A stretch of DNA of 64,000 nt from Collinsella sp. BG-O-102. Its GTDB lineage: Bacteria; Actinomycetota; Coriobacteriia; Coriobacteriales; Coriobacteriaceae. The first letter of the stretch is position 1; the number at the start of each line of letters is the position of its first letter. The stretch covers positions 1 through 64,000 of the forward strand of contig NZ_JAMOKO010000002.1 of NCBI RefSeq assembly GCF_023656745.1. The letters are read 5' to 3'. Below, one piece after another: positions 13,808 through 55,774 of this stretch. The translations under genes were made by a program, and so were the position numbers. Under the pieces are notes generated by a model, which was not told the origin of the DNA, searched no databases, and was given only the letters and a program-made list of their open reading frames with translations.

Positions 13808-13818
13808 CCATCTATTAG

Positions 13819-13920
13819 TTGCGGTGGGATAGTTCCTAGAATGGCCAGCTTAAGGGCAAAACAGGAACTATTCCACCGCAACTTCTTTGGCCGGTGGGGC
13901 AGTACCTGTCCCACCGGCCA
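13819..13920. repeat. Two adjacent long hairpins of the CCTGTCC-loop family
   Basis: The first hairpin pairs 13819-13837 with 13863-13881 (18 of 19 matched). The second pairs TGGCCGGTGGG at 13888-13898 with CCCACCGGCCA at 13910-13920, perfectly, around loop GCAGTACCTGT. Both share GGTGGG..AGT.CCT. They lie between the convergent GntR and ferredoxin genes and could terminate both. Confidence 0.75.
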
Positions 13921-23870: not shown

Positions 23871-24005
23871 TCTCAATCTGTAACATCTAGACCGTTAAAA
23901 GTCGTCTTACTGTTACAGATTGAGATATTCGTCCCGACGCCCGCCGTTTGTCTCGATCTGTAACAGATAGAGCCGATTTGCCCGCCCAGATGTTACAGAT
24001 TGAGA
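23871..24005. repeat. Two tandem inverted repeats with ATCTGTAACA arms
   Basis: Copy 1 pairs TCTCAATCTGTAACA at 23871-23885 with TGTTACAGATTGAGA at 23911-23925. Copy 2 pairs TCTCGATCTGTAACA at 23951-23965 with the same right arm at 23991-24005. The period is 80 bases; both are preceded by GTTTG, and the loops are unrelated. Confidence 0.8.
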
Positions 24006-24106: not shown

Positions 24107-24183
24107 GTCCCCATCGTCTAGCGGCCAAGGACGCCACCCTTTCAAGGTGGATATCGCGGGTTCGAATCCCGCTGGGGGCACCA
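24107..24183 (+). tRNA. tRNA-Glu (UUC anticodon)
   Basis: The acceptor stem is GTCCCCA/TGGGGGC with discriminator A and an encoded CCA. The anticodon stem CCACC/GGTGG holds loop CTTTCAA, so the anticodon is TTC at 24141-24143. The T arm is GCGGG-TTCGAAT-CCCGC. TATACT at 24091 is a likely -10 box. Confidence 0.97.
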
Positions 24184-32253: not shown

Positions 32254-33618
32254 ATGGCGATTACGCCCGCAGAAATCGCGGAAACCCGCGGCATGGTTGA
32301 GGAGCAGAACCTCGACATCAGGACCATCACCATGGGTGTTTCGCTCATGGGTTGCGGTGACGAGAACCTCGACCGCATGTGCACGAAGATCTACGACCAC
32401 GTGACGCACACGGCTGAGCACCTGGTCGAGACCGCCGAGAACCTCGAGCGCGAGTACGGTATCCCCATCGTCAACAAGCGCGTTTCCGTCACCCCGGTGG
32501 CGCAGATTGCCGCTTGCTGCAAGGATGAGAACCTCACCCCTATCGCGCATGCCCTCGACCGCGCGGCCGAGACGCTCGGCATCGATTACCTGGGCGGCTT
32601 CTCCGCGCTCGTCCAGAAGGGCATCGGCGACGCCGACCGCCGTGTCATCCAGTCCATCCCCCAGGCGCTCGCCGCCACCAGCCGCGTCTGCTCCAGCGTC
32701 AACGTCGCTAGCCTGCGCGCCGGCATCAACATGGATGCCGTGCTCATGGCGGCTCAGACCATCATCGATGCCGCCAAGCTTACGGCAGACGAGGATTCCG
32801 TTGGCGCCTCCAAGTTTGTCTGCTTTGCCAACATGGTCGAGGACTCCCCGTTTATGGCGGGTGCCGTCCACGGCGGTGGCGAGGCCGACGCCGTCATCAA
32901 CGTAGGCGTCTCGGGTCCCGGTGTTATGGCTGCAGCCCTGGAGACGCTGCCCGATTCCGCATCGATGATGGAGGTCGCCGAGAAGATCAAGCAGACCGCC
33001 TTTAAGATCACCCGTGCCGGCGAGCTCATGAGCCGCGAGGCCGCCCGTCGCCTGGGTGTCGAGAAGGGCATTGTCGACCTGTCGCTGGCTCCCACGCCCG
33101 CCATCGGCGACTCCGTCGCGCGTATCCTCGAGATCATCGGCGTGGGCACCTGCGGTGGCCCGGGCACGACCTGCGCACTCGCCATGCTCAACGATGCCGT
33201 CAAGAAGGGCGGCGTCATGGCCAGCTCCAGCGTGGGTGGCCTCTCGGGCGCCTTTATCCCCGTGTCCGAGGACGCCGGCATGATTGCCGCCGTCGAGGCC
33301 GGCGCGCTTTCGCTCGAGAAGCTCGAGGCCATGACCTGCGTGTGCTCCGTCGGCCTGGACATGATCGCCATCCCCGGCGACACCCCGGTCGAGACCATCG
33401 CCGGCATCATCGCCGACGAGATGGCCATCGGCGTCATCAACAATAAGACCACGGCCGTGCGCGTGATTCCCGCTATCGGCAAGGGCGTGGGCGACTGCGT
33501 TGAGTACGGCGGTCTGTTCGGCCGTGCGCCCATCATGCCGGTGAACCCCAACGCCGGCACCGTGCTTGCCCACCGCGGTGGACGTTTCCCGGCGCCGCTG
33601 AACTCGCTGAAGAACTAG
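32254..33618 (+). CDS. PFL family protein (DUF711/UPF0210)
   Basis: A 454-residue protein of the DUF711 (UPF0210) group, whose fold resembles pyruvate formate-lyase and anaerobic ribonucleotide reductase barrels although no activity is known. ATG 32254 with AGGAG 7 bases upstream is chosen, because the 19 upstream codons lie in the leader. The C-terminal part is glycine-rich ([11 protein letters not shown]-like [17 protein letters not shown], about 310-326), as usual in the family. In other genomes it follows an ACT-domain regulator gene, which is absent here. A long folded element begins 17 bases after the stop. Confidence 0.88.
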
Positions 33619-33635: not shown

Positions 33636-33769
33636 GGAGCCCCGGGGAGGGCAAATATATAAGGTCGCCTGCTCGGACAGTCCTGACTCGCACGGAGAGC
33701 ACATTAAGTGCTCTCCGGCTCGTGCGGAACTCGCGATCGACCTTATATATTTGCCCTCCCCGGGGCTCC
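33636..33769 (+). ncRNA. Long folded 3' element, copy A (covarying core)
   Basis: The outer arms 33636-33667 and 33738-33769 are exact reverse complements (32 bp). The core between them has ACAGTCCTG, a stem GGAGAGCAC/GTGCTCTCC with apex ATTAA, and GTGCGGAACTC. A second copy on the minus strand at 53945-54091 keeps those same core words but has wholly different arms and stem sequence. It lies 17 bases after the DUF711 stop. RNA or DNA function is inferred. Confidence 0.65.
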
Positions 33770-33936
33770 CGCACAACGGGACCTCGGTTGGGTTCTATCC
33801 CGATTGCAGTTGCTTCGCTCCTGCACCACTTGGTTGGTGCGGCGGTTTGGCGTTGGAACGGTTCTTTTTCTGATATATGCTGGTTGCGGCTCTTCTTTTG
33901 GGAGGAGTCGCTTTTTTGTTGTGAGGGGGATGGCCC

Positions 33937-53778: not shown

Positions 53779-53832
53779 GGAGCCAGCAAAGGGACAGACC
53801 AATGAGCTCCACATGCAGAGAAGGTCACCTGC

Positions 53833-53865
53833 AATGTGACAAAGGGACTGTCCCTTTGTCACATT
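53833..53865. repeat. CCTGTCC-family hairpin with perfect 15-bp arms
   Basis: AATGTGACAAAGGGA pairs exactly with TCCCTTTGTCACATT around loop CTG. It follows the AraC gene by 55 bases on the plus strand. Confidence 0.75.
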
Positions 53866-53944
53866 CACAAAAATGGGCGCGCCAACGGCACGCCCATTCA
53901 CCAAATTCCATTCAGCCCACCTGACCCGGAAGGCCGAGTCGTCA

Positions 53945-54091
53945 GGGCGGGGAAGGCCCCCGGAGCGGCGGGGCGCTTGCTCAAAATGAGTTCCGCACGC
54001 AAAGAAGGCCACTTAATGTGGCCTTCGTCTTGCGCAGGACTGTTCGAAATTTTGAGGAAGCACCCCACCGCTCCGGGGGCCTTCCCCGCCC
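53945..54091 (-). ncRNA. Long folded 3' element, copy B (covarying core)
   Basis: Arms 53945-53987 and 54049-54091 match at 40 of 43 positions. Two of the three mismatches become G-U pairs in minus-strand RNA. The core (minus strand) reads ACAGTCCTG, a stem GAAGGCCAC/GTGGCCTTC with apex ATTAA, then GTGCGGAACTC, as in copy A at 33636. It starts 6 bases past the gatB stop, in the same direction. It is not a simple terminator, since no U-tract is seen. Confidence 0.65.
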
Positions 54092-54097
54092 GTGAGT

Positions 54098-55774
54098 CTA
54101 CGCGAGCGCCTTTCTCAGCAACTCGTTGAAGAGCTTCGGGTTGCCCTTGCCGCGGCTCGCCTTCATGCACTGGCCCACCAAAAAGCCGATAACCTTCTGG
54201 TTGCCGTCACGATACTGCTGCGCCTGATCGGCACAGTTAGCCAGCACCTCGTCCACGATCGGCTGCAACGCACCGGCATCGCTCACCTGACGCATACCAC
54301 GCTCGTCGACGATCTTGTTGGGGTCGTCACCGGTCTGGGCCATGGCCTCAAAGACCTCGTGCGCTTGGTTGGAGCTGATGGCATCGGTCGCCAGCAGCTT
54401 GGCAAGAGCGGCCACCTGAGTCGGCGCGATGCCGGACTCGGCGAGCGACACGCCCGCGCCCTTAAGGTAGGCGATCATCTCGTTGACCAGCAGGTTTGCG
54501 ACCGTCTGGGCCTCTTTGCCAGCCATACCAGCAGCAGCGGCCTCAAAGAAGTCGGCAAACTCGGGGTCGCCGGCGATCTGCTCGGCGTCTGCTGTCTTAA
54601 TGCCAAAATCGGCCTCAAAACGGACGCGCTTGGCATCGGGCAGCTCGGGGATCTCGCCACGGCAGCGGTCGATGAACTCGTCGTCCAGGTCGAACGGCGC
54701 CAGGTCGGGATCGGGGAACAGGCGATAGTCGTCGGCCGTCTCCTTCACACGCATGACCACGGTGCGCTTGCGGCTAGGCTCCCAGTGGCGGGTCTCCTGA
54801 TAGATGATGCCGCCCTCCTCGAGTACCTCGGCCTGGCGGCAGATCTCGTAGGCAAGGCCGTCATGCAGGCTCTTAAACGAGTTGAGGTTCTTGAGCTCGG
54901 TCTTGGTGCCCAGCTTGGTCTCGCCGCGGCGACGCAGCGAAACGTTGCCGTCGCAGCGCATGGAACCCTTCTCCATGGAGCAGTCGGAAATGCCCAGCGT
55001 CACAAAAATGCGACGGAGCTTTTCCATAAACAGGCGAGCCTCCTCGGGCGTGCGCAGATCAGGCTCAGTCACGAGCTCGATCAAAGGCGTGCCGCAGCGG
55101 TTGTAGTCGACGAGTGACTCGGCCGCGGCGGTAATACGGCCCTCGGCACCGCCCACGTGCACCATCTTGGCGGCGTCCTCCTCCATGTGGATGCGCAGGA
55201 TGCGGATGGGCACCGTGTAGGAACCGTCCTCGCGACGCTCGGGCATCTGCAAGTTGGACGCATCATAGCTGGCCAGGTGGCCGGCGCGCTGGTTGCCCTC
55301 GCGCATGGTCGACGTCATGGACGTGGACAGACCCTCGGCGTTGGCCGAGGCGCTCGCCAGGCTCTGGACCTCGGCCTCACCAAACGCGCAGTCGGGGCGC
55401 TCGGCGGCACCGCGACCGGTCACATCCAGATCCAGGTGACCGTACATGGCAAAGGCGACCGGACCCTGCGTAGTCTGGAAGTTCTTGGCCATATCGGGAT
55501 AGAAGTAGTGCTTGCGGTAGAACATCGAGTGGCGCTGAATCTCGCAGTTGGTGGCCAGACCCGCCTTGACGATGCTCTCGATGGCACGTTTGTTGGGCAC
55601 CGGCAGGGCGCCGGGCAGGCCCAGGCACACCGGGCACACGTTGGCGTTGGGCTCGTCATCGTGGCTGAGCTTGCAGTTGCAGAACATCTTGGTATCGAGT
55701 GCGGTGAGCTCGGTATGGATCTCCAGGCCAATCACGGCCTCCCAATCCTGCAGGACCTCGGAAAGCTCCTTCAT
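54098..55774 (-). CDS. gatB: Asp/Glu-tRNA amidotransferase subunit B
   Basis: A 558-residue subunit B. It starts with the kinase core (IGLEIHTELTALDTKMFCNC) that activates misacylated tRNA, with the zinc cysteines CNCK and CPVCLGLPG. YFYPDMAKNFQTTQ and the GTPLIELVTEPDL segment follow. The C-terminal GatB/YqeY domain binds tRNA. AGGGAGG lies upstream of ATG 55774, which overlaps the gatA stop by one base. It makes Asn-tRNA and Gln-tRNA with gatA and gatC. Confidence 0.97.
   Translation of the reverse strand: MKELSEVLQDWEAVIGLEIHTELTALDTKMFCNCKLSHDDEPNANVCPVCLGLPGALPVPNKRAIESIVKAGLATNCEIQRHSMFYRKHYFYPDMAKNFQTTQGPVAFAMYGHLDLDVTGRGAAERPDCAFGEAEVQSLASASANAEGLSTSMTSTMREGNQRAGHLASYDASNLQMPERREDGSYTVPIRILRIHMEEDAAKMVHVGGAEGRITAAAESLVDYNRCGTPLIELVTEPDLRTPEEARLFMEKLRRIFVTLGISDCSMEKGSMRCDGNVSLRRRGETKLGTKTELKNLNSFKSLHDGLAYEICRQAEVLEEGGIIYQETRHWEPSRKRTVVMRVKETADDYRLFPDPDLAPFDLDDEFIDRCRGEIPELPDAKRVRFEADFGIKTADAEQIAGDPEFADFFEAAAAGMAGKEAQTVANLLVNEMIAYLKGAGVSLAESGIAPTQVAALAKLLATDAISSNQAHEVFEAMAQTGDDPNKIVDERGMRQVSDAGALQPIVDEVLANCADQAQQYRDGNQKVIGFLVGQCMKASRGKGNPKLFNELLRKALA

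Follow-up and report, generated by a model that had tools for sequence, protein, structure and literature searches.

What kind of structure is the long hairpin that lies directly behind a DUF711 gene in the window, the 64,000-nt stretch of Collinsella DNA analysed here, and at which level is its pairing maintained? The preliminary description had noted that this hairpin (element A) shares core words and an apex with a second one (element B) 20 kb away while arms and inner stem differ but still pair, and had taken the compensatory change as strong evidence for a selected RNA, or possibly single-stranded DNA, structure. Our best reading is that A and B both represent an interspersed, Coriobacteriia-specific palindromic DNA element with a REP/BIME-like lifestyle.

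Elements A and B and the family they belong to

The arms of A are perfect along all 32 bp, as first described, and ACAGTCCTG, GTGCGGAACTC and CACATTAAGTG are indeed common to A and B. The arms of B span 43 nt with 93% complementarity. That the inner stem differs yet pairs was borne out for the arms and the apical stem, and has to be limited to these because the segment of A between core words and apical stem, CTCGCA / GCTC, forms no regular stem; the same segment of B, CGCAAG / TTTGCG, is a regular stem. RNA folding z-scores were -13.5 for A and -15.9 for B. A begins 17 nt past the DUF711 stop codon and B 6 nt past that of gatB; A itself has no T-run behind its 3' arm. Adjoining the terminator of B we observed a perfect 16-bp hairpin, AATGTGACAAAGGGAC / GTCCCTTTGTCACATT, at 53833-53865, with a partial third copy at 53787-53800.

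Table 1. Features of elements A and B and their neighbours in the window.
Feature	Position	Strand	Remarks
DUF711 gene immediately 5' of A	32254-33618	+ (same strand as A)	PF05167, E=1.3e-181
Element A, whole hairpin	33636-33769	+	32-bp perfect arms round 70-nt centre
Element A, 5' arm, 32 bp, locus-specific	33636-33667	+	perfect inverted repeat with 33738-33769
Element A, internal loop, 5' side, CCTGCTCGG-ACAGTCCTG	33668-33685	+	columns fixed or almost fixed across 19 copies
Element A, apical hairpin CGGAGAGCAC-ATTAA-GTGCTCTCCG	33693-33717	+	stem covariation among 72 distinct cores
Element A, internal loop, 3' side, GTGCGGAACTC-GCGAT	33722-33737	+	invariant in 19 copies
Element A, 3' arm	33738-33769	+	perfect inverted repeat with 5' arm
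Intrinsic terminator downstream of A, separate from it	33886-33911	+	stem plus TTTTTTG
Intrinsic terminator 45 nt 3' of B	53871-53899	-	GAATGGGCGTGCCGTTGGCGCGCCCATTT then TTGTG
Element B, whole hairpin	53945-54091	-	arms 54049-54091 and 53945-53987; core 53988-54043
Element B, apical hairpin GAAGGCCAC-ATTAA-GTGGCCTTC	54004-54026	-	sequence, stem covariation and folding
gatB, 5' neighbour of B	54098-55774	- (same strand as B)	PF02934/PF02637

A and B are members of a large, previously undescribed hairpin family. We searched with the exact-core pattern ACAGTCCTG-N20..50-GTGCGGAACTC, using the reversed pattern as control. The pattern matched 19 times in the 2.27-Mb Collinsella source genome, where the control did not match, and occurred in 33 of 43 congeneric genomes (up to 23 copies each), again with no control matches, so that the family is not a product of chance. 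Further copies with a matching core thus exist, and their stems covary as predicted: in a structure count over the 19 copies, 26 of 38 pairs had changed on both sides, and none of 500 shuffles scored as high. A covariance model found about 29 places in the source genome, with each palindrome counted once, and 10-16 places in several other genera of the same family.

Across the class, 33 of 89 genomes contained matches. Three families of Coriobacteriales carried many copies, up to about 20-30 per genome, and the element was sparse in the other orders, at one or two copies per genome. Copies were listed on genome contigs of at least Collinsella, Adlercreutzia, Slackia, Parvibacter, Enterorhabdus, Gordonibacter, Tractidigestivibacter and other Coriobacteriia. 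A looser core pattern, run against 396 genomes of the phylum, matched almost exclusively Coriobacteriales; outside the class a single incomplete genome held a copy with arms (L293), and the match in genome G308 was short and was also hit by the control pattern. Short-read assemblies probably undercount the element, because draft contigs end inside or beside the hairpin, as four Collinsella contigs do (G008:C3:70394, G004:C58:9-64, G005:C45:11-66 and G009:C12:13-68).

The preliminary description called the structure unnamed, and Rfam, including Collinsella-1, returned no match at gathering or relaxed thresholds, only miRNA-type hairpins far below gathering scores. We found no description in the literature; an unnamed entry in the supplements of a survey of gut structured RNAs (PMC8040213) is possible. 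A phage origin was rejected: exact-pattern matches on viral contigs lacked arms and were attributed to chance, element A matched no phage record, and a Halorubrum virus matched the minimal core in the GC-rich apex word only. The sole matching plasmid record is a 900-kb Collinsella sequence equal in length to a chromosomal contig (G007:C6). The window also holds a separate dispersed hairpin family, AGTTGCGGTGGAATAGTTCC...GGGACTATTTCACCGCAACT, at 13817-13884 on the minus strand (about 67 bp, tens of copies per Collinsella genome), and inverted repeats, TCAATCTGTAACA..., at 23871-24005, just 5' of a tRNA gene at 24107-24180.

Aligned copies are 110-150 nt long and run arm, GC/TC(R)(R), ACAGTCCT, apical stem, TGCGGAACTCGC, arm. 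The internal loop, TC..ACAGTCCT / TGCGGAACTCGC, is near-invariant: ACAGTCC is kept with few variants throughout the class, and TGCGGAACTCGC is common to copies throughout it. A motif kept across a bacterial class in this way can be expected to bind a protein and to influence the genes that precede it. The apical stem occurs in many covarying versions (72 distinct cores) with the loop ATTAA or ACT/ACC/GCC, and is almost absent in some copies (L286). The arms, 22-48 bp long, have no sequence in common between loci and are AT-rich beside the core; the 5' arm is G-rich (G>C 0.47/0.33, T>A 0.12/0.08). In the flanks of 182 elements, no position was conserved among 69 upstream and 60 downstream, nor was there a conserved promoter, upstream motif or tail, or any T enrichment beside the 3' arm. 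A promoter for an independent sRNA was rejected, as these upstream flanks have no conserved motif.

Placement behind stop codons

The preliminary description had proposed testing whether copies cluster 3' of genes; they do, and about half of those in Collinsella lie just behind a same-strand stop codon. Among 150 Collinsella copies with gene calls, counts that take in orthologous loci and are not independent, 78 begin about -12 to +46 nt from the end of a same-strand gene, mostly 3-46 nt past the stop codon with a median near 15. Another 62 are antisense copies with a gene on either side. A separate intrinsic terminator was found downstream of 41 of the 78 sense copies and upstream of 2. Copies in other families and orders are mostly placed in the same way, behind eno, rho, thyA, ffh or a leuC-type gene, some of them inside likely operons (eno-pyk, thyA-dfrA, leuC-leuD), and the sense bias is present even in genomes with one or two copies. 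Convergent pairs are frequent, at a spacing of 35-220 nt. At one locus (L015), a terminator 53 nt past the first element repeats the apex hairpin of that element, GAAGGCCACATTAAGTGGCCTTC plus TTTG.

A sense bias behind stop codons is what would be expected of an RNA function, and it counts against a DNA element. The main rival to our reading is a cis-acting 3'-UTR RNA element, in which hairpin and loop, transcribed together with the upstream gene, are recognised as RNA and determine how stable the upstream message is, as an exonuclease block, an RNase III site or the site of an RNA-binding protein. Its arms would drift since pairing alone is needed, and template switching would keep them perfect. 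The position ahead of the terminator, the recurrence of this placement in distantly related orders and within likely operons, the very stable fold and the near-invariant internal loop all speak for this account, which we regard as possible rather than probable. Against it stand the roughly 40% of Collinsella copies that are antisense to both neighbours, and the lack of a conserved promoter or tail.

Loci are shared among most Collinsella compared and are fixed within a species group, and within one genus certain species have no element at loci that are occupied in others. We found no conserved direct repeat beside the arms. Where a species lacks the element, the orthologous intergenic region had diverged too far for its empty site to be aligned.

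Mismatches and the replacement of arms

If pairing were selected at the RNA level, the mismatches left in the stems should favour G-U. In Collinsella arms we counted 56 G-T against 76 A-C mismatches, and in apical stems 3 against 4, whereas control tRNA stems at the same loci had 23 G-U against 3 A-C. The sense copies alone showed no preference for G-U either (26 G-T against 42 A-C), and antisense copies were as well paired as sense copies (0.945 and 0.958, p=0.37); both results also count against the 3'-UTR account.

Arms of Eggerthellaceae gave a different picture, with 45 A-C against 7 G-T mismatches (p=7e-8). Most of them lie at positions 5-9 below the loop, where an A in the 5' arm recurrently faces a C in the 3' arm. 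DNA symmetry alone gives no explanation of this bias, which counts against our reading. On the opposite strand these A-C mismatches become G-U, which is what an RNA transcribed from that strand, with the core read as GAGTTCCGCAC...CAGGACTGT, would show. The excess is, however, mainly confined to those few positions and is absent overall in Collinsella, no conserved promoter lies 5' of such an RNA, and most copies would then be antisense to the abutting gene; we consider an opposite-strand RNA very improbable.

Concerted change that shows no preference for wobble pairs points to copying of arm onto arm at the DNA level, or to exchange of whole elements. The pattern of change at individual loci bears on both. 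In 295 same-locus comparisons between different genomes, both arms were replaced jointly at 16 of 22 loci, usually together with a switch of core, in flanks about 2-12% diverged (for example L010/L203/L141, L032/L106/L110 and L042/L064/L072). L010 and L203, with a flank identity of about 98.6%, differ by 11 two-sided changes and no one-sided change. The commonest two-sided change was a swap of C-G to G-C (218 of 472), for which there is no wobble route. Comparisons with arm replacement tended to show a changed core too (odds ratio 10.7, p=2e-19, from pairs that are not independent). Arm divergence was about 0.2 at any flank divergence between 2 and 12%, a figure that may overstate the speed of arm replacement because inter-strain recombination may homogenise the flanks.

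These results bear directly on what the covariation means. With no G-T excess among the mismatches, antisense copies equally well paired and arms replaced jointly, the conclusion that a selected RNA is present does not follow from stem covariation, and of the two structures first offered, the single-stranded DNA alternative fits better than RNA. The family is a natural case of perfect, covarying stems without a sign of RNA-level selection, and a caution for RNA discovery based on covariation.

Some loci were found in one-armed recombinant states, namely L013 and L087 (both with one arm from each allele), L068 (one arm rewritten) and L058; L013, L087 and L068 look like replacement intermediates. 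A search for donors of new arms at other loci gave only GC-rich matches of about 16 nt, except for L058 (in G002) and L172, which have an inner arm in common and different flanks; this sharing suggests a rearrangement or an ectopic exchange through the element. Template switching inside a hairpin is a known source of multi-base, two-sided changes and predicts G-C and U-A asymmetry (PMC8794818), and the G>C and T>A asymmetry of the 5' arm is what intrastrand switching predicts. The data fit template switching and inter-strain recombination of whole elements alike and do not separate the two routes. With so many recent paired replacement events, the mechanism of arm rewriting should be readable from sequence.

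The joint change of arms and core at fixed loci would also be expected if a hairpin-recognising recombinase or HUH-type enzyme moved or replaced whole elements; the enzyme would act at the internal loop, and each event would build or bring in new arms. The multi-copy, class-restricted distribution, the convergent pairs and the patchy occupancy of loci within one genus agree with such mobility. However, we found no cognate enzyme neighbouring the copies or co-distributed with them, no target duplication was obtained, and most loci are shared across the Collinsella compared, so we consider a mobile hairpin of this kind quite unlikely. The failure to find an enzyme, a target duplication or a clean empty site counts against our own reading as well. 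A RAYT/Y1 transposase was not supported as the enzyme, being absent from some copy-bearing genomes (G015, G017 and G044 have copies and no Y1 gene) and, where present, not flanked by copies; no model match lay within 3-4 kb round the three Y1 genes of G000. Doubtful, if somewhat less so, is a dedicated Coriobacteriia system that recognises the folded DNA hairpin via its internal loop and replaces or rebuilds the whole unit. Were it real, it would define a class of mobile or self-renewing hairpins by their centre and not their ends, in which arms are rewritten in single events while position and core persist.

We give an even chance to our reading of A and B: a DNA palindrome whose internal loop is under selection, whose arms are maintained at the DNA level by template switching or conversion, and which probably has a secondary effect on 3' mRNA ends. 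Such an element would work as follows. The duplex would extrude, or a single strand at the replication fork would fold, into a hairpin, within which one arm could template the other, so that any change would be followed by a return to Watson-Crick pairing. At the conserved internal loop a putative enzyme may recognise the hairpin, either to maintain or spread the element or to direct its replacement. Where a sense copy stands behind a stop codon, the transcript would fold into a very stable 3' hairpin and so would probably protect the upstream cistron against 3' exonucleases, a role that REP plays in malEF.

Comparison with known systems

Integron attC sites are folded, imperfect hairpins with unpaired internal bases that stand right behind stop codons, and in them the outer core sites are conserved and the middle is variable. 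The Coriobacteriia element is likewise an imperfect hairpin with unpaired internal bases behind stop codons, but its outer ends differ at every locus, its middle is conserved and its hosts are housekeeping genes. It is short, non-coding and interspersed and is built on an inverted repeat, as are MITEs and ERIC/Correia-type repeats, but those have ends conserved throughout a family, whereas its arms are locus-specific. It differs from an intrinsic terminator in lacking a U-run directly behind the stem, and from structured RNAs in that wobble pairs are not preferred over A-C mismatches, as they are in the tRNA control.

Hairpins maintained by template switching, as described by Monttinen and Loytynoja (PMC8794818), resemble it in their one-event, multi-base compensatory changes, perfect stems and G-C and U-A asymmetry. 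Those hairpins lie in rRNA and miRNA genes; here the repeat is bacterial and dispersed, and its arms are much longer.

The REP/BIME/REPIN palindromes (with TnpA_REP/RAYT), as described in PMC8266576 and PMC3116915 and in general background, are extragenic, occur in tens of copies without coding capacity, often lie 3' of genes or between cistrons, form convergent pairs and occupy fixed loci, all of which the Coriobacteriia element does too. It differs in its conserved centre, free arms and length, and in the flank positions of the 182 elements it lacks a foot tag of the GTAG/CGTC type. The element fails the tests that define REPs, namely the foot tag and the RAYT link, but it is REP/BIME that it most resembles in the way it works.
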